53,905 nt of DNA, from positions 1-53,905 of the forward strand of contig JAFGQN010000016.1 in NCBI GenBank assembly GCA_016935665.1. The letters run 5' to 3'. This stretch comes from Deltaproteobacteria bacterium. Its GTDB lineage: Bacteria > Myxococcota_A > Polyangia > JAAYKL01. Of the stretch, positions 31,123-42,933 are shown one piece after another. The notes beneath the pieces are model-generated. The model saw only the letters and a list, made by a program, of their open reading frames with translations. It ran no database searches and had not been told where the DNA came from. A program made the translations under genes and the position numbers. Position 1 is the stretch's first letter, and each line of letters begins with the position of its first letter.

Positions 31123-31998
31123 ATGCTGCGACTCAGTTTATTTTGTTTGTTCGTTGTTTTTTTACTGACAGTGATGTCTGGATGCAAAGAGGACGATGGC
31201 GGGAACGATATTTCCAATGACACGGGTGATACCTCTTCGGTTGACAAAACCAGCGATGACATATCAACAGAATCGACAGACAATGGGAAAAACGATACGG
31301 GCGAGGAGGACTCAAACGCCTGGCTCGAAAACTTTGTCGCGCCTCTGGAATGGACGCTCCCCACGGATTGTGGAACGGTTGGAGAATCCTGCGAAAATCT
31401 CAACGGCTGTGGCGATGACAGCATTTGTCAGACCGAAGGTTGGGTGTGTACGCCGGACTTTACCGAAGAAGAAAGAACCCGTAGCGAAGCCTATCCTTAC
31501 TGCATGTCGTATGCGTGCATGAGCTACGAGGAAGCGTCGTGCTATTGCACGGGTAAAGGAGCGGAAGTGAATGCGGCCAAATGCAGCGGGGGCCCCAGGG
31601 CAGTTTTGGGCCAATGCGCAATGGAAAACAAATTGTGCACAGAACTAACATGCTGTGGAGATTTGGAGTGCATTGAGGTGATACCCAGAATCAAAAAATG
31701 TCAGCTACGTTGTGAAAACAACGATGACTGCGAAACCGGCTGCTGCTCTGATTTGCTGGGAATCGGCGTAATGGTCTGTGCGCCGGCATCCGAGTGTGAA
31801 GACCCGTGCGTGCCCCATGGCGGAGCATGCGAAGACACGCCAGATTGTTGTACATCAATGTGCGTCTCGTCACCGGATGACCGCATCGCGGGATGCCGAC
31901 ATTACTGCTATGAGGACGAAGACTGCGGTTTTGGCTGCTGTCTGCCATTTGACAGCGGCGGCGGTTTCTGTGCGGATGATATTTTTTGCGGTAAATAA
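31123..31998 (+). CDS. Cys-rich lipoprotein with short Asp/Ser/Thr linker
   Basis: 291 residues. AGGAGG lies about 9 bases before the ATG. The lipoprotein signal ends in VMSGC. A Thr/Ser/Asp/Asn linker (about 22-66) is followed by a region with around 30 cysteines, many in pairs (ELTCCGDLECIEV, CETGCCSDLLG, TPDCCTSMCV, EDCGFGCCLPF). The spacing is like the small disulfide-knot repeats of secreted deltaproteobacterial proteins. It is probably displayed on the surface; binding partners are unknown. It is monocistronic as far as can be seen. Confidence 0.85.
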   Translation: MLRLSLFCLFVVFLLTVMSGCKEDDGGNDISNDTGDTSSVDKTSDDISTESTDNGKNDTGEEDSNAWLENFVAPLEWTLPTDCGTVGESCENLNGCGDDSICQTEGWVCTPDFTEEERTRSEAYPYCMSYACMSYEEASCYCTGKGAEVNAAKCSGGPRAVLGQCAMENKLCTELTCCGDLECIEVIPRIKKCQLRCENNDDCETGCCSDLLGIGVMVCAPASECEDPCVPHGGACEDTPDCCTSMCVSSPDDRIAGCRHYCYEDEDCGFGCCLPFDSGGGFCADDIFCGK

Positions 31999-32364: not shown

Positions 32365-33234
32365 TTAACGGGATACTGCTTTCATCGTTTCCCGCCTGTC
32401 AGCCACCATAATGTAAAGCGTTCCGCCAACAATGACAATTCCTCCAATGATAGTTGTCACATGTGGGGTTTCTCCGAACACCGCGTACCCCATTACAACC
32501 GAAAAAACGATCTCCAGGTACATGAACGGCGCCAGAAAGGAAGCATCTTCCAAAGATAGTGCCTTCAACAAAAAAAACAGAACAATGTTGAACATCAGAC
32601 CGATAACAAAAAGCCCAATCATGTGCATGGAAGAGGGTGTCTTCCATACACTGATAGCCGGTCCAAGGGTAAGCAGTGACGCAAACAGTGAAGCGTACAG
32701 AATCATCGTTACGATGGATTCCGTCTCCAGATGCTTCTTGTTCATTATTTCCAGTAGCGCATAAAAAAACGCGCCGAGCAACATGATGGAAACCATCGGA
32801 TCGAATGATGGCGTAAACGGTCCAACAACAATTAAAACACCTATAAATCCAATCATCGTAGCCACTACTCTTTTTATTCCAACTTTTTCTTTCAATATCA
32901 ATGACGCCAGCGGCAGCAAAAATAGCGTAATGGAAAAACTTATCACGGTAGCTGCGGTGATTTGCACAGTTTCGAGCCCCCAATACCAACACAGAGTAGC
33001 GGCAAACAAAACGGCTGACCGTAAAAAATGAAATCCTGTTGTTTGAGTCCTGAAAGTCCCCATCCCCTGAAAAAGCGCCACTGGCACAATGGTGACAAAG
33101 CTGAAAAAGAAAAGAAAGAAAGATACTTGCAGAAAAGGGAGTTCCTGTTCGAGATACTTGGCATAAATATCATTTGCATTCACCAGCCAAAGGTGAATGA
33201 CAAAAGAAACAATTCCCAGAGACCTATTGCTCAT
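32365..33234 (-). CDS. EamA/DMT-family transporter
   Basis: 289 residues, ten hydrophobic segments in two halves, the EamA (drug/metabolite transporter) layout. Typical features are the Pro/Gly-rich ends of helices and LILKEKVGIKRVVATMIGFIG at the end of the first half, repeated in style by YAVFGETPHVTTIIGGIVIV in the second. EamA proteins usually export amino acids, amino-acid derivatives or other small metabolites across the inner membrane. It follows the alpha-oxoamine synthase gene by 128 bases on the same strand and could export that pathway's product (inference from position). Confidence 0.88.
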   Translation of the reverse strand: MSNRSLGIVSFVIHLWLVNANDIYAKYLEQELPFLQVSFFLFFFSFVTIVPVALFQGMGTFRTQTTGFHFLRSAVLFAATLCWYWGLETVQITAATVISFSITLFLLPLASLILKEKVGIKRVVATMIGFIGVLIVVGPFTPSFDPMVSIMLLGAFFYALLEIMNKKHLETESIVTMILYASLFASLLTLGPAISVWKTPSSMHMIGLFVIGLMFNIVLFFLLKALSLEDASFLAPFMYLEIVFSVVMGYAVFGETPHVTTIIGGIVIVGGTLYIMVADRRETMKAVSR

Positions 33235-33362
33235 TTTGTATCCGTAAAAATAACTCTAAAGACTGAATTCATGCAATCTTCAGCTGTTCATGCCAAGGCG
33301 ATTCATGCTAAGAAAATGCGTCTGCGTGTCTTTCTGCACAAGCTGCCATTTACTGTTTTTAA

Positions 33363-34628
33363 CTATTTCGTTTTTAAAAAACGTTTTTCTGTGAGGCAGT
33401 CCTTTACGTCGGAAAATGCGGCAAGTAATTGATCGACTTCTTCATGGGTGTTTGCCGCGGTAAGAGTGATTCGGTGCCCTTCTTCACCTCTAATGACCAT
33501 GGGATAAGGAGATACGGTCACCAGAATACCTTTTTCATACAACATATTTGCGGAATCAATTAACGCATCATTGTCCCCAATAAGTGCATACACTATGGGA
33601 AAGCCGCTCTTATTGAACACCGTGTATCCAAGCGCCCGCAGTCCTTTTATCGTCCTGTTCGTCAATTCCCATAATCTCTTTCTGTACTGGTCTCCTCGTG
33701 CTTTGTTTATTTTTAATCCATTTGCAAGTGTCGACAGAGATGCTGTTGGACAAGGTCCCGACAGGTCGTATGTTGTGGCGAACGCCTGAAGAAATGTCTT
33801 CATTTCATGCGAACAACCGACAAAAGCGGCCATCGAGGAATATGCTTTTGAGCATCCGCCCACATAAATTATATTTTCGTAGTCGAGCCCATAGTATTTT
33901 ACGATGCCATTGCCATTGAATCCGTAAGGCATATCACTGGTTGGATTCTCGCCAACGATACCGAATCCATGGGCGTCATCGATATACAATATGGCATCGT
34001 ATTTTTTTGCGAGTGAGACCAGCTCCGGAATTCTGGCAAAATCGCCGGACATGGAGTAGACACCATCCACCATAATGACTTTACGTGGGTTGTCTTTATG
34101 TTTCTTCAGCATGGTTTCAAGCGTCTCGAAATCGTCCTGTCTGAAGCTCTCTAATGTCGCACCGCTGTCCCGAGCGATTTTTGCGCCTTCATACATGGTC
34201 TCATGCCCGGACTTGTCGAGAATCAACACACCATTTTTTCCAACCAGCGCCGGCAACACACTGATTGATATCAACGTGACAGTAGGAATGATAAGCGTCG
34301 TTTCCGTGCCTATCAATTCGGCGAGTTCTCGTTCCAGCGCATCATATATTCCTGGGCTGGCCACCAGTCGGCACCAGCTGGGGTGTACGCCCCAGTTTTT
34401 TATCTCTTTGTCAATATCATTGCTGGTTTCCGAATCCAAATCCAGTCCCAGATAATTGCACGAAGCGAAATCCACCACCCAGTGCCCCTTCTCAACTTCT
34501 ACCTTTCTGCCATCAATGCCTGACACAATGACATTGTACTGTTTCATTTGATTGAACATGGTTCGAATCTGCGATCGCCGATGCTCGTTCATTGTTGCTT
34601 CTATCAATCTCTTCTCTGCTGAGTTCAT
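33363..34628 (-). CDS. Alpha-oxoamine synthase (BioF/KBL/CqsA-like PLP enzyme)
   Basis: 421 residues. The fold-type I motifs are in place: His142 in KSGHETMYE (ring stacking), DDAHGFG with Asp218 and His220, and the PLP lysine Lys261 in GGCSKAYS. Enzymes of this family condense an acyl thioester with an amino acid and release CO2, as in 7-keto-8-aminopelargonate, sphinganine or CAI-1 synthesis. There is no biotin gene nearby, so a specialised product such as an alpha-aminoketone is more likely. It starts one base after the GNAT stop with AAAGGA upstream. The acyl donor cannot be told. Confidence 0.88.
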   Translation of the reverse strand: MNSAEKRLIEATMNEHRRSQIRTMFNQMKQYNVIVSGIDGRKVEVEKGHWVVDFASCNYLGLDLDSETSNDIDKEIKNWGVHPSWCRLVASPGIYDALERELAELIGTETTLIIPTVTLISISVLPALVGKNGVLILDKSGHETMYEGAKIARDSGATLESFRQDDFETLETMLKKHKDNPRKVIMVDGVYSMSGDFARIPELVSLAKKYDAILYIDDAHGFGIVGENPTSDMPYGFNGNGIVKYYGLDYENIIYVGGCSKAYSSMAAFVGCSHEMKTFLQAFATTYDLSGPCPTASLSTLANGLKINKARGDQYRKRLWELTNRTIKGLRALGYTVFNKSGFPIVYALIGDNDALIDSANMLYEKGILVTVSPYPMVIRGEEGHRITLTAANTHEEVDQLLAAFSDVKDCLTEKRFLKTK

Positions 34629-34629
34629 C

Positions 34630-35451
34630 CTAAATGTCCTTTGTTAATGGTCGTCGAAAAAGCCTTCGACGAAAAAACGCGTTGAAACCAGTTTTCAAAC
34701 AGGCCTGATTGCTGAATGCATCACCGTCACAGTTGACAAACGCGTGCGAACATCCGAGTTTTGTGCTGAAGTTAATGCAATGCATCAACATCGTGGAATA
34801 CAGCCCTTGGCAACGATACGGCGTCAATACTGCGGCTTCGGAAAAGAATGCGAATGGACCACATACACTTACGGCGCCCGTCATTACCGGGATTCCGTCC
34901 AATCGTCCAAGGAAAAAGCTGTGTTCGTTTTTATTGTCTATTTTTAAAGCATGCGCTCTTTTTCTAAAAAAAGCCCCAAGCGCATCCGTTATGTCGTTGC
35001 ATGCAGTATCTATCTCCCAGAAAACATGCATATCCGGGCTATTCGGATGCACATTTTGAATGTGGAGTCTTCCAGCATCGATTTTAATGTGGCTTTCAGT
35101 TTCCATTAACTTGTTGCTGTCCAGTTTTTTTTGATACCAGACCTCCAGCTCTGACGCATCCTCTTTATATCCGCAGTCTTTGAGCGAATCCTCCAGCGCC
35201 AAGGGAGAACAAGGGTCAACATACACGCATGATGCTGTCCCTCTTTGCTCAAAAAACTGCTCAATTTCTCCCAATGTATCCCTGTCATCACTCGCCAGAG
35301 TGTGAGCACAGTTGTAATATTTTCTGTCTGCAATCGCGTTAAACGAGATCAAAAATCGCTGTGTGTCCACCAGTTCTTCAAAATACAATGAGTGCATTGT
35401 TCGGTAATATGCCCTCAATATGTCACGAATATAAGGACGGGAGATTTTCAT
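34630..35451 (-). CDS. GNAT-like acetyltransferase
   Basis: 273 residues. The C-terminal half has the GNAT pattern: EAAVLTPYRCQGLYSTMLMH matches the acetyl-CoA loop (Q/RxxGxG/A, here RCQGLY), followed by FVNCDGDAFSNQACLKTGF, which fits the final strand and the usual N..A...Y/F KxGF motif. The N-terminal half is a second, weaker domain. The expected reaction is acyl transfer from CoA to an amine. It lies between the adenylating enzyme (5 bases upstream) and the alpha-oxoamine synthase (1 base downstream), behind AAGGAG, so it probably modifies the amino substrate or product of the same pathway. Confidence 0.8.
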   Translation of the reverse strand: MKISRPYIRDILRAYYRTMHSLYFEELVDTQRFLISFNAIADRKYYNCAHTLASDDRDTLGEIEQFFEQRGTASCVYVDPCSPLALEDSLKDCGYKEDASELEVWYQKKLDSNKLMETESHIKIDAGRLHIQNVHPNSPDMHVFWEIDTACNDITDALGAFFRKRAHALKIDNKNEHSFFLGRLDGIPVMTGAVSVCGPFAFFSEAAVLTPYRCQGLYSTMLMHCINFSTKLGCSHAFVNCDGDAFSNQACLKTGFNAFFRRRLFRRPLTKDI

Positions 35452-35456
35452 AATGG

Positions 35457-37049
35457 CTAAACTCCTTCTCTGTTCAGGATCTCCTTTTGCAATAAAATGC
35501 GATCTATCTTCCCGGCTGAGCTCATGGGCATTTCTCTTTTTTGTATGTACCTATAAGGCATCATGTAGGCGGGAAGATGTTGAAAAAGGTTTTTTTCAAC
35601 ATCTTCTTCGTTGTATGAAGCGCCGTTTAAAGAAGTATAGAAGCAATACAATCTGTTCCCGTATTTGCTGTCCGGAATCGCAACAACACACGCCTTGTCC
35701 AGGTTATTGTCCTTTGCCAACGCGGATTCCACTTCACCGATTTCTATTCGAAATCCTTTCACTTTAACCATATGATCTCGTCTTCCACAATAATGCAGAA
35801 TGCCATTTGAATCCCGATATCCGAAGTCTCCGGTTCGCCAAAAATAGGCGGGAGATTTATGAAACGGACTTTTTACAAGGTGTTTTTTGGTTTGCTCCTC
35901 CATCCCGAGATATCCCAAAGTAACAGTGCCGCCTCTGCACCACAGTTCTCCGGTCTCTCCGATGTCACACAACTGTTCAGAATTTTCGGAAACGACAATA
36001 ATTTCTGTATCGTCCACTTCTTTTCCAAGGGGAATGGGTTCATCATTCTTTGGTGGTTTGCGAATCCACTGACATGTAATAATATTTGTTTCCGTGGGAC
36101 CATAAATATTCGCTACTGGAACACCAGGGATTGTATTCATAAACCGGCGAAGAAACGGTGTTGGAAAAGGCTCACCTGCATACATCACCTTTTTTAAATT
36201 AAGTCCTTCTCTTCCCAGATTTCCCCGGTTCATGAGCGATATTAGTGTTGACGGTGTCGTATAAAGGGTCGTCGCTTTTTCCCGGATCATTAAATCCACA
36301 TATGCCGCATGTTTATTGTCTCTTTTACTGAACCAGTCAAAACAAACGAGCGTTGCACCTGCACCAAGGGTATTAAAAATGTCAAAAACCGACAAATCGA
36401 ATTTAAATGGCGCCCTCGACATAACCACATCATCAGATGTCAGCTGAAACGTCTTCTGCATCCAGTCCACGAAGGTTCTTGCATTGCGATGGCTCAACAT
36501 AATCCCTTTGGGGACACCCGTGGATCCAGAGCTGTGAAGAATGTATGCCAAATCGTCAGACACCTGATTTGACGGCGTTCGTTCTTCGATGCGCGTCAAA
36601 AGGACAGTAGAGAAATCAATATGGTCTGCGGCCGGCGTACAGGGATGTGGATGCAGCAACACAAAGAGAATCTTTTTATTGGCTTCAATCAGTTCCCTGT
36701 GTTTTTCATAAAAACGGGGATCCAGGGCAATCACATCCAATCCCGTATTGTCGATAATTTTCTGAAGTCGCTCTCCGGGAGAGCTTTCATCCAAAGGAAC
36801 ATAAGCCAGCCCAGATTTCAGAGCGCCGAAAACAGCTGCAATACTGTGAATGTGAACGTTGGACAAAATTCCCACATACGGAGAAAGTTGTCGGGAGCTT
36901 TTTCGTTTTAAAAAAATATTCGCATATTTATTCGCCATTTTTTCCAGCTCGTCATAGGAAATGGTGTGGCCGTTCTCCTCAACGATTGCCGTTTTATCTG
37001 CAAACTGCAAAACAGCATTTTCAAATACATTATGTAACAATCTACTCAT
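35457..37049 (-). CDS. Stand-alone amino-acid adenylation enzyme (NRPS A-domain type)
   Basis: 530 residues, one complete adenylation domain: SSGSTGVPKG (A3), FKFDLSVFDIF (A4, with the Asp that binds an alpha-amino group), NIYGPTETN (A5), GELWCRGG, YFWRTGDFGYRD (A7), GRRDHMVKVKGFRIE (A8) and SSAGKIDR (A10 lysine). No carrier protein or condensation domain is attached, and none is seen nearby. It should activate an amino acid as an acyl-adenylate; the partner is unknown. It overlaps the SAM-enzyme gene by 8 bases, with GGAG upstream. The substrate cannot be predicted safely by eye. Confidence 0.9.
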   Translation of the reverse strand: MSRLLHNVFENAVLQFADKTAIVEENGHTISYDELEKMANKYANIFLKRKSSRQLSPYVGILSNVHIHSIAAVFGALKSGLAYVPLDESSPGERLQKIIDNTGLDVIALDPRFYEKHRELIEANKKILFVLLHPHPCTPAADHIDFSTVLLTRIEERTPSNQVSDDLAYILHSSGSTGVPKGIMLSHRNARTFVDWMQKTFQLTSDDVVMSRAPFKFDLSVFDIFNTLGAGATLVCFDWFSKRDNKHAAYVDLMIREKATTLYTTPSTLISLMNRGNLGREGLNLKKVMYAGEPFPTPFLRRFMNTIPGVPVANIYGPTETNIITCQWIRKPPKNDEPIPLGKEVDDTEIIVVSENSEQLCDIGETGELWCRGGTVTLGYLGMEEQTKKHLVKSPFHKSPAYFWRTGDFGYRDSNGILHYCGRRDHMVKVKGFRIEIGEVESALAKDNNLDKACVVAIPDSKYGNRLYCFYTSLNGASYNEEDVEKNLFQHLPAYMMPYRYIQKREMPMSSAGKIDRILLQKEILNREGV

Positions 37050-37722
37050 TACCTGCTCCTGCTTTTACAACGATGAATTCGCAAACGTCGTTCTCTATCT
37101 TCTGCGCATGCTTGAAATCTCGAATCTCCTGCAAATCCTTTAATGATATTTCTCTATTGAGATCGCCAACCAGCGTCGCGCAATCAGGCATTAACGTCTT
37201 GAGATAGCTAAAATAGTTTTGTCTTATTTTTTTGGATTTCTCGCTGTTTCCCCATTTGGAAATAACGAGAACATCTCCGTTTTTAAGAAGCTTATTCAAA
37301 TGGTATTGAAAACCATCGATATAGGCCGCCACATTGAAATGAAAAATAAGTACGCAAGGCGATGACGGAATATCAAATGAATCAATGGCGCAAAACGGCT
37401 TGTCCACCAGATGAACAGCAATGCTTCCCGAAGAGGCAATAAGAGATTTGACCGAGCTGTTGACATACAAATGAATTAACGGGTCGATTGCCGTATAGGA
37501 CAATGAATGCTTTTGAGCGACATCCAGATACATCAAAGGCCCCGCGCCCACTACAACAAGATGTTTTCCATGTACCAGCCGAGACAGAACCGCTCGCTCT
37601 TCCGTCAAATACGGTTGCGCGTTGCTTAACGCCAGAGGAGAAAACATGTAATAAAATCTCTCGGCGTCATTCTGAATTGCTTCTTTTAATTGCATGGGTA
37701 AAAAAACATTACTTTTCGACAT
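37042..37722 (-). CDS. SAM-dependent methyltransferase-like protein
   Basis: 226 residues from the ATG at 37722, which overlaps the stop of the small upstream ORF (TGATG); a TTG three bases earlier is also possible. The centre is a Rossmann nucleotide-binding loop HLVVVGAGPLMYLDVAQ (about 55-70) followed by an acidic residue after beta-2 (YTAIDP), as in class I SAM-binding enzymes. The loop GxGPL also recalls nicotianamine-synthase-like aminobutyryl transferases, so aminobutyryl transfer from SAM is an alternative to methylation. It overlaps the adenylation gene by 8 bases and is clearly in the same operon. Confidence 0.72.
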   Translation of the reverse strand: MSKSNVFLPMQLKEAIQNDAERFYYMFSPLALSNAQPYLTEERAVLSRLVHGKHLVVVGAGPLMYLDVAQKHSLSYTAIDPLIHLYVNSSVKSLIASSGSIAVHLVDKPFCAIDSFDIPSSPCVLIFHFNVAAYIDGFQYHLNKLLKNGDVLVISKWGNSEKSKKIRQNYFSYLKTLMPDCATLVGDLNREISLKDLQEIRDFKHAQKIENDVCEFIVVKAGAGNE

Positions 37723-37910
37723 CAATCCGACATCCTTTTCCCTAACAGGCGAAACAGCAAATACATAAAGGCGCTCGCATGAATTTTGTTTTCCCGTGGT
37801 TCAGCAATAAAAATGCCAAAAAAAAAAAATGATATTTTCTCAAGTTCCCGGCAGCCGTTTATGGTCAGAGAATCATTTCGAATGTCACCTTCAGAGAGCA
37901 ACAATCGCAT
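37722..37910 (-). CDS. Small protein at the head of the biosynthetic operon
   Basis: 62 residues from the ATG at 37910, behind GAGGAG with 6-base spacing, ending in TGA that overlaps the next ATG by one base. Longer starts at 37949 or upstream are open and look coding-like. The middle is a run of four Phe encoded by 12 consecutive T on the minus strand (37818-37829), a slippage-prone homopolymer. No known family. It could be a regulatory leader, a peptide precursor or a remnant of a longer gene; strong translation signals favour expression. Confidence 0.5.
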   Translation of the reverse strand: MRLLLSEGDIRNDSLTINGCRELEKISFFFFGIFIAEPRENKIHASAFMYLLFRLLGKRMSD

Positions 37911-38287: not shown

Positions 38288-38605
38288 TTACTCTTTTACA
38301 AATTCTAAAAACTCCACAGGCGCTCCATTCTCAACTATAAATGCTACCGAAACGCCTTTACCAGGGCTATTGGGTTCAATTAATATTTGCTTTCCCTTTA
38401 GCGCCTCATTAAGATCATCAACTTCAAAAGCTACATGGGCAATTTCTTTTACAAGTTCAGGCAGCTTACAATTTTTGCCGTATCGCATCCATTGAATGTT
38501 GTAGGGATTGGATGCATGGTCCGTACAATGAAAATCGAATTTTTCAATATACACTTCACCTTTTTGAGGTGATTGTGTCGGTATGCCAATATGATGGAAT
38601 TTCAT
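38288..38605 (-). CDS. VOC (glyoxalase/bleomycin-resistance) family protein
   Basis: 105 residues, shorter than the two-repeat glyoxalases and about the size of one VOC half with both beta-alpha-beta-beta units. The metal-ligand positions are seen in FHHIGIP at the N-terminus, HVAFEVDDL near 70 and PVEFLEF at the C-terminus (His and Glu). VOC proteins include dioxygenases, epimerases and resistance proteins, so activity is open. Its codon use is AT-rich like the downstream operon, but about 380 bases of possible element debris separate them. Its start is immediately after the group II intron 3' remnant. Confidence 0.8.
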   Translation of the reverse strand: MKFHHIGIPTQSPQKGEVYIEKFDFHCTDHASNPYNIQWMRYGKNCKLPELVKEIAHVAFEVDDLNEALKGKQILIEPNSPGKGVSVAFIVENGAPVEFLEFVKE

Positions 38606-38800: not shown

Positions 38801-39075
38801 CTATTGTACAGGAAGCGCTTTCGGCGATGTGGTCTCCCGATTCAGTTTATAAACAAAAAAAACAACTATATCATATAACCATTACCTACTCCACCTCTTC
38901 CAGCCAACGCCAAAAAGTTTACGCACTTTCATCAGATGTATCCTTGCTTACTTTTCAACCCAATCTCTGATGTATCCAAAAACATGCGATGAGTGACCAA
39001 TTGCAAAGTAGTTCACCCAGCCACTCAGTATCGGGTTAATCAGATACACCATCCGATCAAGTGGCTGAGAACGAA
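38801..39075 (-). pseudogene. Group II intron reverse transcriptase/maturase, C-terminal remnant
   Basis: One minus-strand frame reads the maturase-specific (GIIM) domain, LINPILSGWVNYFAIG and YIRDWVEK, then HLMKVRKLFGVGWKRWSR, WLYD, and the usual ending PKALP. Two in-frame TAA codons interrupt it, after VEK and after RWSR, where working copies have Lys and Gln. The reverse transcriptase core is absent: upstream sequence switches to an IS4-like transposase fragment. It is therefore a dead, truncated element. Confidence 0.8.
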
Positions 39076-39079
39076 ATCG

Positions 39080-39400
39080 TCGGAATATCTCTTTGATTGC
39101 TTTTCAGCGTGTCCTTACCAACTGTATTCCAAACTATGGGAATTGCTCGGCCATGTTTCATTATGAGTGACAATACCAGCATGGTTTGGCCGTCATTGTC
39201 GAAATCCGTCCAGTCCATGGTGACATCGATACTTTTTTGCTGCCCACTATCGCCCTGACAAGGCAATGCATTATTTCCACAGGACAACGGTTCTGGTTTG
39301 ACATGAATCGGTCAACCTGTTTGATGCCATGTTTTGTGCTGCCGCGACCACGCCTCTTTGCCATGGCTGCCCAATGTCGGGAATTGTCATTCTCACGGTA
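39080..39400 (-). pseudogene. IS4-like DDE transposase fragment
   Basis: Two overlapping minus-strand frames give transposase pieces in the right order: RHWAAMAKRRGRGSTKHGI then KQVDRFMSN, and after a frameshift DVTMDWTDFDNDGQTMLVLS with RAIPIVW and KDTLKSNQ. These match the region around the first catalytic Asp of IS4-family transposases (WTDFD). The other catalytic residues are missing and no terminal inverted repeats were identified. The fragment joins the group II intron remnant at about 39060-39100. Confidence 0.75.
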
Positions 39401-39490: not shown

Positions 39491-40534
39491 TCAATCTAAA
39501 TAGAAGTAGGCATAGTCGGCCTGCGTTCCTGTGCCCGCGTTATTTTTCGCCTTTACCGTCCAGGCATAATATGTATCGTGATAAACCGGCCATACTGACA
39601 GGGAAGTGCCTGTGGTATTCCAGGTATAGTATTCCTTCCATGAAGCGCTGTTCCAGTCCCAGTACCAGAACAGAACGTCGTAGTTGGTGGCCCCTGTTGC
39701 GGCATTCCATCCGAGCGATACGCCGCTGCTTCCAACATTGCCCCATCCATCCGGAGAAAGGCCGGTCACTTTGGGCGGAGGCTGTTGTGTTCCGGAACAG
39801 GAACCTGGTGCTGTCGAAACGTAGATGTCCGCGCCATAATAGAATCTCAGGATATTCATGTAGCTGTATCCTTGATTCTCCAGACAGATAGAACCGTTTT
39901 GGCTCAAACATCCGCGATTCTGGCCGTATCCAAAATCAGAAGGTGAATGCACCCATCCCAATGTTGTCTGCTCAACGTTTGTACCGGTTTTTCCCTGATT
40001 GTAGGTCACATAGTATTCGGTCCCTGACGAGCTGCTGCTGACACATGACGGGCTGGGCGTTGAGGGATCTCCGGCCACATAAAAACCATATGTGAGAGTA
40101 TCGCTGTAGTTGAGGTATTGACCGGCTGTCGCCGCAGCAGCCTGATAATGTCTGGTTTGCGGGCTGGCGCTGCAACTATAGACCTGACACGCCTGGCCAT
40201 CGCATATCCTGCCATCCTGGGCCATGTAGTAATAGGCCGTGGATCTCGCTGCAATCGCCAGCGCCTTCAGTGCCTCATACTGCGCTGAAAAGTTCTCGCA
40301 GGCCAGCACATGTGGAAGATAATCGGTTTCCATGTTTTTCTGTGTATCCACCCCGTTGATGGTTACAACTGCAGTACAATAGGCCGATGAAAGGGGCGCT
40401 ACCACCCGTTGCGGCATTGAAATGGATTCAAAAGACGCCTCTTCGACCGAAGTGCAGGCGACCGCCACCAACGCCAAAATTGACAATAAAACACCTGTTC
40501 GTTTCATAATGTCGCAGATTGGATTGCAATACAT
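39491..40534 (-). CDS. SpoIID/LytB-domain lipoprotein with fibronectin type III domain
   Basis: 347 residues from the ATG at 40534, chosen for AAAGGAG 7 bases upstream. Lipoprotein signal with lipobox VAVAC. The SpoIID/LytB domain (about 45-250) shows LPHVLACENFSAQYEALKAL and AIAARSTAYYYM, the family core, with an unusually Cys-rich middle (CDGQACQVYSC). A fibronectin type III-like domain (about 262-347; VTGLSPDGW, VSLGWNAATGATNYDV) ends the protein. SpoIID proteins are peptidoglycan lytic transglycosylases, here perhaps acting on denuded glycan strands in the envelope. A near-consensus promoter lies upstream. Confidence 0.88.
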   Translation of the reverse strand: MYCNPICDIMKRTGVLLSILALVAVACTSVEEASFESISMPQRVVAPLSSAYCTAVVTINGVDTQKNMETDYLPHVLACENFSAQYEALKALAIAARSTAYYYMAQDGRICDGQACQVYSCSASPQTRHYQAAAATAGQYLNYSDTLTYGFYVAGDPSTPSPSCVSSSSSGTEYYVTYNQGKTGTNVEQTTLGWVHSPSDFGYGQNRGCLSQNGSICLENQGYSYMNILRFYYGADIYVSTAPGSCSGTQQPPPKVTGLSPDGWGNVGSSGVSLGWNAATGATNYDVLFWYWDWNSASWKEYYTWNTTGTSLSVWPVYHDTYYAWTVKAKNNAGTGTQADYAYFYLD

Positions 40535-40589
40535 GGTACTACTCCTTTGTTTACACAAATTTACACAATACGCCTGAATGGATGCGACT

Positions 40590-40618
40590 ATTATTAAGCG
40601 CATTCGGGAAGTTGTCAA
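40590..40618 (-). promoter_or_regulatory. Sigma-70-type promoter of the SpoIID-like gene
   Basis: Minus strand TTGACA (40618-40613), 17-base spacer, AATAAT (40595-40590). Transcription would start near 40583, about 49 bases before the ATG. Confidence 0.65.
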
Positions 40619-40936: not shown

Positions 40937-42676
40937 TTATTTTTGCATTTTTTCTTTCAGCACCTGCAAAAGGGCATCGTTGGCATTGGCTTCGTCGGGC
41001 AGCTCTTCGTCGCCAAAATAAATACCAAACGAATTTTCGTGCCAGGAGTGGTAAGTAAAATGCAGGTCATTTGCCAGAATCAAATCGAGCATGTCCGCCA
41101 CCCATTTTTCACCGCCGCGATTTTCCTGAAAGCTGCCGGCGATGGCACCGAATTCCCCAAGGTACAGCGGGACATCGTGTTTTTTGCCCCATGCCACATA
41201 GTCGGCCAGTTCCTGCGCCAAAAAGCCTTTATCCCAGCCGTGCAATGGCACACTGGCACTGTTGACGTCGAGGCGAATCATGCAGCGGGCCCCTTGTGGA
41301 ATCTGTTCGCCCTTCATCCAGCCGCTCACCCGATAGCGCTTGCCGTCTTCCATTTTCACCATGTAAATATCAGCGCCCAGATTACAGTCACCAGTGTTGC
41401 CGCTGATGCTTAAGGAAGAATCATCTTCGTGTCCCACCGATTCCAGTCTGGCGTCGCCGTCACCGGACGGATTCCAGAAGAACCATCCGCGCGTTGTGGT
41501 GAGATTAATGGTGCGCAACACCTTTTCCACCTTGTCATCGGCATCGATTTGCTCAATCACAATGTCATCAAAATACGCTTTGCCGCTGTTGGTATTGCAG
41601 GTAAGCGCCGGTTTGGCCAAAATGTTTTTTGTCCCCACGGCGGTGTAAAGGGCGCCTTCGTAATACGCCCAGTCACTGTCGCCGACAGGCAGGGTGGGAC
41701 TGGAAAATGTGGCGGTTTCCCAATTCATGAAAAACCATTCTACCCCCACGCGACTCTCATCGGGCCAGCTGGTTTTTGACGCGGCAAAATCTACCCAGGG
41801 CGCATCCTGATGCGTAAAATGAAACGGTTTGTAAAAATGAAATTCGTAGACAACGTTCGGGTCATCCACCAGAAAGAAGTTTCGCTGTGCGTCTTCTTTC
41901 CAGTCGCCATCCACCGCATTTACCCGCTCCACAAACAGCATATGATACGCATCCACCTTGCGCACTGCCTTTACCAATCTATCCGCAAGGTCGTGCCACT
42001 GCCCCCGGTTTTTAGTCACAATGGGTTCGTTTAAAAAATCGTAACCGGCAATGATGGGTTCATCCCGATACCGTTTTGAAATGGCCATCCACAGCCCAAT
42101 GAGCCGCTCCCTTGCAGATGCATCCTCCCACAACGCCTTGCCTTCACCCAGAGACTGAAATCCTCCCTGAGGCACATGCATATTTAAAATAAGATAGATG
42201 CCATGTTTTTTCGCCCAGGCCACATTGTCATCCAACCATTGCCAGCCAGTGTCTTTGTATGTCCCAGGCGCGGCGTCATCCTCAAAGGTTTTGTAATTCA
42301 TATAAAACCGAATGGCGTTGCCGCCCATGGCCGCAAGACGTTCGTAATCGGTTTCATTGTGATGCTTGCGGGGCAGTTCGTCGTCCACCCATACCCGGTT
42401 GCCAAACGCCACGCCGTGAAACTTCACAATGTTGCCATGGCCATCCACCACCTGATTGTCTTTCACCCGCAGCATTTCCGGGTTGGAACTCTGGGGTACT
42501 TTTCGGGTCGTCTTTTGGGTCAGCGCAGCCGTTTTGGGCGCTTCTTCAACTGTCTTTTCCGGAATCGCTTTTTTTATCTCCAGGGTGGCCACAGGGCCCT
42601 TCGCATTTTCAGATGCCGCACCGCAGGATGCCAGCAGCAATGCCAGAAGCCCGATGGTTACATATTGTTGTCGCAT
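40937..42676 (-). CDS. GH5-family glycoside hydrolase lipoprotein with inserted beta-sandwich domain
   Basis: 579 residues from the second ATG at 42676 (GGGAG 9 bases upstream; the first ATG, 42682, is too close). Lipobox LASC. A Lys/Thr/Pro linker leads to a GH5 barrel: VVDGHGNIVKFHGVAF, GGNAIRFYMNY, acid/base Glu217 in YDFLNEPIV, YEFHFYKPFHFTHQ, and nucleophile Glu508 in LYLGEFG. Between the last two elements, about residues 310-475 form a separate domain (GKAYFDDIVIEQID, RYRVSGWMKGEQIP) that resembles family 4/9-type carbohydrate-binding modules. So the catalytic barrel is split by an insertion. Likely substrate is a beta-glucan or mannan outside the cell. Confidence 0.9.
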   Translation of the reverse strand: MRQQYVTIGLLALLLASCGAASENAKGPVATLEIKKAIPEKTVEEAPKTAALTQKTTRKVPQSSNPEMLRVKDNQVVDGHGNIVKFHGVAFGNRVWVDDELPRKHHNETDYERLAAMGGNAIRFYMNYKTFEDDAAPGTYKDTGWQWLDDNVAWAKKHGIYLILNMHVPQGGFQSLGEGKALWEDASARERLIGLWMAISKRYRDEPIIAGYDFLNEPIVTKNRGQWHDLADRLVKAVRKVDAYHMLFVERVNAVDGDWKEDAQRNFFLVDDPNVVYEFHFYKPFHFTHQDAPWVDFAASKTSWPDESRVGVEWFFMNWETATFSSPTLPVGDSDWAYYEGALYTAVGTKNILAKPALTCNTNSGKAYFDDIVIEQIDADDKVEKVLRTINLTTTRGWFFWNPSGDGDARLESVGHEDDSSLSISGNTGDCNLGADIYMVKMEDGKRYRVSGWMKGEQIPQGARCMIRLDVNSASVPLHGWDKGFLAQELADYVAWGKKHDVPLYLGEFGAIAGSFQENRGGEKWVADMLDLILANDLHFTYHSWHENSFGIYFGDEELPDEANANDALLQVLKEKMQK

Positions 42677-42933
42677 AAACATTTACTCCCTTTCGTGTTG
42701 ATATTATCGATGTGTTGCGAGCCGCTGCCATATTTTGCCAAATCGCAAGCGCTTCAACCAGCCGATAATAGAGTGGAAACCAAAATGGCGCTTTGGCTCA
42801 GAAAAAGGACCGTTATGTCATTCCATCGCGATAGAACATTCGCACAACTTTTGGGATGCATCCCCCTGATTGATTACTAAATTTGTTGGCGAACCTGAAT
42901 CCAACCCCTTTTATTTGGCCAAAGGAACCGAAA

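Follow-up and report, generated by a model that had tools for sequence, protein, structure and literature searches.

We report a compact operon at positions 32365-37910 of a 53,905-nucleotide stretch of contig JAFGQN010000016.1 from a Deltaproteobacteria bacterium (the window, that is, the whole stretch analysed). A SAM-binding enzyme, a stand-alone adenylation domain (A-domain) and an alpha-oxoamine synthase (AOS) form its core, which is, on balance and by a little, probably a cassette that has spread horizontally and makes a small aminoketone with an azetidine ring. A narrower reading holds that the cassette is free of carrier proteins: the A-domain would hand activated azetidine-2-carboxylate (AZE), as adenylate or CoA ester, to the AOS, giving a new class of azetidinyl aminoketones made by mobile cassettes, including those of candidate-phyla (CPR) bacteria with their small, reduced genomes. 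This we consider a serious possibility falling somewhat short of an even chance.

The five operon genes all lie on the minus strand. The first is a small ORF (37722-37910, 62 aa), a candidate leader peptide; its start at 37910, behind a good ribosome site (GAGGAG), had been correctly placed by the earlier note. It is followed by genes for the SAM-binding enzyme (37042-37722, 226 aa from the ATG), the A-domain (35457-37049, 530 aa), a GNAT-like protein (34630-35451, 273 aa) and the AOS (33363-34628, 421 aa). As previously noted, these genes overlap or abut. The small-ORF stop overlaps the ATG of the SAM-enzyme gene (TGATG at 37722), an arrangement pointing to translational coupling, the SAM-enzyme and A-domain genes overlap by 8 nt, and the two remaining gaps are 5 nt (A-domain to GNAT) and 1 nt (GNAT to AOS), so that no gap exceeds 5 nt; all five genes possess plausible ribosome sites. 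A gene for an EamA (drug/metabolite) transporter (32365-33234, minus strand) does come next, after 128 nt, in line with the exporter proposed there. Pfam matches were obtained for AMP-binding (1e-69), Aminotran_1_2 (1e-29) and EamA (7e-27); the GNAT match is weak (1.2e-3) and under the cut-off, neither the small ORF nor the SAM enzyme matches any Pfam model, and the latter matches no NCBIfam model either. No relative of the small ORF was found. Its DSL...FGI segment looks carrier-like by eye, but we rejected it as a carrier protein, with no Pfam match, no relatives and helix 1 missing. A run of 12 T within it (37818-37829) is a possible slippage or assembly-error site.

The operon region has a GC content of 43.7%, against 51.4% in the rest of the window (z = -5.4 relative to equal-length stretches of the window, every one of which outside the island has at least 49.3%). 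The AT-rich island seen by the earlier note is thus real and the operon foreign in composition, whereas the 57-63% quoted there for comparison holds for the chosen lines only, 60-base lines outside the island having median GC of 52-53%. Mobile DNA has left a trace close upstream of the operon, in the form of a vestigial group II intron maturase (GIIM domain, 1e-12; 38948-39103, minus strand). A glyoxalase-like ORF (38288-38605) was discarded as an operon member, having no relative in any cassette. On the other side, the operon is adjoined by a gene on the opposite strand for a cysteine-rich putative lipoprotein without Pfam match (31123-31998). A SpoIID-domain protein is encoded at 39491-40618, next to a GH5-family hydrolase (40937-42682). 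Rfam gave no match anywhere in the window.

In other genomes the core genes proved to stay together and were not scattered over separate contexts, a pattern that, like loss of catalytic residues, would have spoken against the earlier note. The SAM enzyme-A-domain pair was found at 15 loci besides the window, and in 16/16 loci the SAM-enzyme gene stands directly upstream of the A-domain gene (gaps about -8 to +21 nt). An AOS gene lies beside the pair in all other loci but three, of which L038 and L040 are cut by contig ends; for the third, in Embleya (L031), no AOS was found within 12 kb on either side. Because the gene set recurs across phyla as a unit, the operon is beyond chance. Scanning genomes for the A-domain pocket region yielded 11 of these loci: two in Parcubacteria, one each in Levybacteriota, Roizmanbacteria and a 0.9-Mb bacterium of the Parcubacteria phylum, four in Alphaproteobacteria, and those of Nocardia paucivorans and Klebsiella sp. 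BIGb0407, the last two being named, non-MAG genome records. Family searches added loci in an alphaproteobacterium (L050) and two Enterobacteriaceae (L054 and L055). The distribution is very sparse, with 2/380 genomes sampled in the phylum of genome G565, 1/118 in the genus Nocardia and 3/295 in the Klebsiella family. Within the class, the SAM enzyme was present in 1/290 genomes, which is that of the window.

The identity matrices of the A-domain and the AOS agree (Mantel r = 0.85, 1/2000 permutations), implying that these genes mostly travel together. In the plasmid collection, just one SAM-enzyme match is convincing; it is found on a megaplasmid of Embleya, where the best A-domain match follows directly downstream. 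A 61-residue piece of VioH had no match among the plasmids. Cassettes L041 and L054 occupy what we take to be a common site, between ilvC and ppiC/rep, and L055 (5584-10100) lies directly downstream of glmS, before phosphate-transport genes, presumably the usual Tn7-type insertion site. None of the E. coli genomes matches the cassette DNA of L041 or L055. Single in-frame stops occur in the A-domain genes of L031 (about 12985), L054 (about 7750) and L055 (about 8840) and in the SAM-enzyme gene of L036 (about 8771), suggesting either frequent loss after transfer or assembly errors.

The SAM enzyme shows its closest relationships to AZE synthases. A profile of two SAM-enzyme sequences retrieved VioH (6e-4) as the sole match below 0.3 among PDB sequences, and a 12-member profile searched against all PDB sequences retrieved VioH (5e-7), AzeJ (0.003) and 29ST (0.006), with nothing further below 0.4. 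AzeJ and VioH are AZE synthases; 29ST is named just "Methyltransferase family protein" in the PDB, and AZE-synthase motifs are present in its alignment. Consistent with the sequence search, the top seven PDB fold matches of the AlphaFold model (pLDDT 84) are all AzeJ chains, VioH ranking 29th (TM 0.63). In AzeJ, mutation has shown that Phe134 and Tyr175 matter (PMC11794875). Both positions are invariant in the alignment of the SAM-enzyme family, Arg172 is retained in most members, and an invariant Met26 may correspond to AzeJ Met28. The full published signature is, however, absent from the window enzyme. The PFNxxGN motif reads HFNVAAY, with Phe and Asn kept and Pro, Gly and Asn139 replaced; RxxYYxxC reads RQNYFSYL, keeping Arg172 and Tyr175 and lacking Tyr176 and Cys. 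The two residues that hold the carboxylate of SAM in AZE synthases, Asn139 and Tyr176, are thereby Tyr and Phe. The FY motif (Tyr18) was not found in the window enzyme; an FY at residues 23-24 takes a different position once aligned with L055, whose canonical FY falls in an unalignable N-terminus.

Cassette L055 supplies a link, for there homologous AOS and A-domain genes (about 40% identical) flank a canonical AZE synthase, which matches VioH at 1e-26 and bears the full signature (FY, PFNCFGN, RMAYYAKC). By hhalign, the window SAM-enzyme family aligns to this enzyme with an E-value of 1e-10 and a probability of 97%. At L032, a methylthioadenosine-nucleosidase-like gene follows 10 nt after the A-domain gene, as would fit methylthioadenosine (MTA) as a by-product. 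With Asn139 and Tyr176 replaced and FY not found, the window enzyme is non-canonical by the published signature, a diverged relative of the AZE synthases with plausibly the same activity. These same replacements could instead be read as marks of a true methyltransferase that tailors an ordinary A-domain/AOS aminoketone lacking any azetidine, and the fold is that of class I methyltransferases, a thousand chains of which likewise match the model. We think this unlikely: AZE synthases alone score below 0.01 in the all-PDB profile search, a canonical AZE synthase holds the same place in L055 and the A-domain pocket is proline-like. Both sequence comparison and the structural model thus predict that the enzyme is not an ordinary methyltransferase. 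Still less likely, in our view, is that the cassette makes some other SAM-derived block for the A-domain and AOS, such as an aminocarboxypropyl unit that is transferred or cyclised in another way. In favour of this, the carboxylate-binding residues differ from those of AzeJ, whereas those near the reacting amine and sulfonium are retained; L055 and the prolyl-like pocket favour AZE.

The A-domain possesses the core motifs, the alpha-amine-binding Asp and the A10 Lys of amino-acid-activating (ANL/NRPS) domains. Its pocket code, DLFYMAIIIK, is identical in the window and in every cassette covering all ten positions, Asp and Lys included, although the A-domain proteins are just 37-94% identical; the truncated L038 agrees at 9/10, and the L055 code is DLFYLAIIVK. 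Between the fixed Asp and Lys, stand-alone prolyl A-domains follow the consensus L(L/F)YLALVC (PMC3874040). Compared with it, LFYMAIII is identical at 4/8 variable positions and exchanges hydrophobic for hydrophobic residues at the other four. Among PDB entries, the pocket region matches the prolyl ligase PltF best (39-40% identity, against 25-30% for Txo1 and LgrA). The predicted pocket thus appears prolyl-like. A model of CcbC places proline in contact with three of the variable residues, those at code positions 236, 301 and 330 (PMC3874040); the window A-domain has Leu, Ala and Ile there. With Ile in place of Val, position 330 would narrow the pocket, as a four-membered ring needs. Acceptance of AZE by a prolyl A-domain is documented (PMC11794875).

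In the AOS, the stacking His, the Asp/His pair and the PLP Lys align with those of solved AOS enzymes, with no loss of these catalytic residues. The earlier view of a single small-molecule operon built on a stand-alone A-domain and an AOS is supported. The analogy with CAI-1 drawn at the same time did not find specific support. AOS enzymes such as CqsA and LqsA do make quorum-type signals, but the window AOS scores 102.5 bits against the CqsA-type model (NCBIfam NF005526; curated cut-off 428), among those cassette neighbours that were read, none was recognised as a sensor kinase or receptor, and the distribution is very sparse. We therefore regard an amino-acid-derived signal like CAI-1 as a very improbable product. 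The AOS is also below the cut-off of the BioF model (TIGR00858; 220 bits against 426). A genome scan with a single AOS sequence gave no match. Two AOS genes of different clades lie in tandem at L033 (7439-9934); their products share 47% and 68% identity with the AOS of the window, and the first resembles that of L042. Locus L005 (G460:C24) encodes a polyketide synthase that ends in a carrier domain plus an AOS domain, the latter sharing 45-46% identity with the window enzyme, and is followed by an amine-oxidase-like gene.

The absence of a nearby carrier, already remarked on from the sequence, holds for the whole window contig, in which no carrier domain was found, and for every cassette. Elsewhere, the window genome contains 16 PP-binding hits and 3 phosphopantetheinyl transferase (PPTase) hits, whereas neither the carrier (PF00550) nor the transferase (PF01648) was matched in 5/5 cassette-bearing CPR genomes, which may be incomplete. 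Missing genome parts could hide one carrier, less easily five, and both families turned up in most of the control genomes and in the three remaining cassette genomes for which both searches were made. As the five CPR genomes show neither a carrier domain nor a PPTase, carrier-less operation is probably literal, the activated acid probably going to CoA or straight to the AOS. Free amines can serve in vitro as acceptors for an aminoacyl adenylate supplied by an A-domain (PMC5811625). The hits in the window genome, and the occurrence of the related AOS of G460 behind a carrier, would suit a scheme in which the A-domain loads a fatty acid or NRPS carrier encoded elsewhere, as in the pyoluteorin and prodigiosin pathways, and the AOS uses the thioester. 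Given the five CPR genomes and the carrier-free cassettes, such a scheme appears improbable.

The genes around the core vary. A two-domain GNAT is encoded in the window, L033 and L042, another GNAT in L041 and L054, and a formyltransferase in L032 and L037, so that 7 cassettes have one or the other; further extras are a cystathionine-synthase-like PLP protein (L034) and the second AOS of L033. The EamA gene was found at the window locus only and in no other cassette, which makes it optional or incidental. The core is accordingly the SAM enzyme, A-domain and AOS, with EamA and GNAT optional. The likely role of the GNAT-like protein is to cap or detoxify an amine. A cap would make a free alpha-aminoketone more stable, or would detoxify AZE, the latter having been suggested in the AzeJ paper (PMC11794875). 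A saxitoxin-like MT-GNAT-ACP-AOS order was dismissed as a model: the cassette lacks a carrier, its SAM enzyme groups with AZE synthases and not every locus has a GNAT. In L036 (10977-12092), a 371-aa gene on the opposite strand, sulfotransferase-like by eye and without Pfam or NCBIfam match, lies between the A-domain and AOS genes.

For the azetidine cassette we propose the following pathway. The SAM enzyme, judging from homology, would cyclise the aminocarboxypropyl part of SAM to AZE, releasing MTA. The A-domain, from its pocket, would activate AZE, a ring-contracted proline analogue, as the adenylate, to be passed to CoA or straight to the next enzyme rather than to a carrier protein. By the chemistry of its family, the PLP-dependent AOS would condense activated AZE with a primary alpha-amino acid under loss of CO2, giving an azetidin-2-yl alpha-aminoketone. 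Being a secondary amine, AZE is unable to form a PLP aldimine and must therefore enter as the acyl donor. In a last step differing between loci, a GNAT or formyltransferase would cap the amine (N-acylated or N-formylated product) and an exporter would remove the product. CPR bacteria have few known biosynthetic pathways. If the proposal is correct, a three-enzyme cassette needing SAM, ATP, PLP and an amino acid could run in them without carriers or phosphopantetheinylation, an azetidine aminoketone scaffold would be added, and the AZE synthases would gain a diverged branch whose carboxylate site differs. The cassette would also serve to test the carrier-free supply of an AOS by an A-domain.

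In the open-licence literature we found no paper pairing an azetidine with an oxoamine synthase, and the product looks new. The AzeJ/VioH clusters share with the window a SAM-binding enzyme of the same family; the AzeJ paper reports azeJ-like genes beside stand-alone A-domains, N-acetyltransferases and DMT transporters, also in CPR bacteria and with signs of mobility (PMC11794875). Enzymes of the window type have diverged further and do not show the complete signature, and the A-domain and AOS without a carrier are core here, whereas the main text of that paper names no AOS (PMC11794875). PltF, CloN4, RedM and CcbC resemble the window A-domain in the pocket (LFY.A followed by hydrophobic residues) and in being stand-alone, but load a carrier with proline (PMC3874040); the window cassette has no carrier, and its pocket differs from the CcbC model in having Ile for Val at a proline-contacting position. 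The AOS of G460 is similar to the window AOS but forms the C-terminal domain of a polyketide synthase, following a carrier domain. In prodigiosin synthesis, PigI is a prolyl-type A-domain that loads a carrier, PigH has an AOS domain with its own carriers, and an oxidase and a ketosynthase are needed. That pathway, like the window cassette, combines a prolyl-type A-domain with an AOS, but the cassette contains no carrier, oxidase or ketosynthase. BioW with BioF, or the fused BioWF, sets a carrier-free precedent in coupling ATP-dependent acid activation to an AOS; BioW activates pimelate to its CoA ester, whereas the window has an NRPS-type A-domain for an amino acid (PMC9544090).
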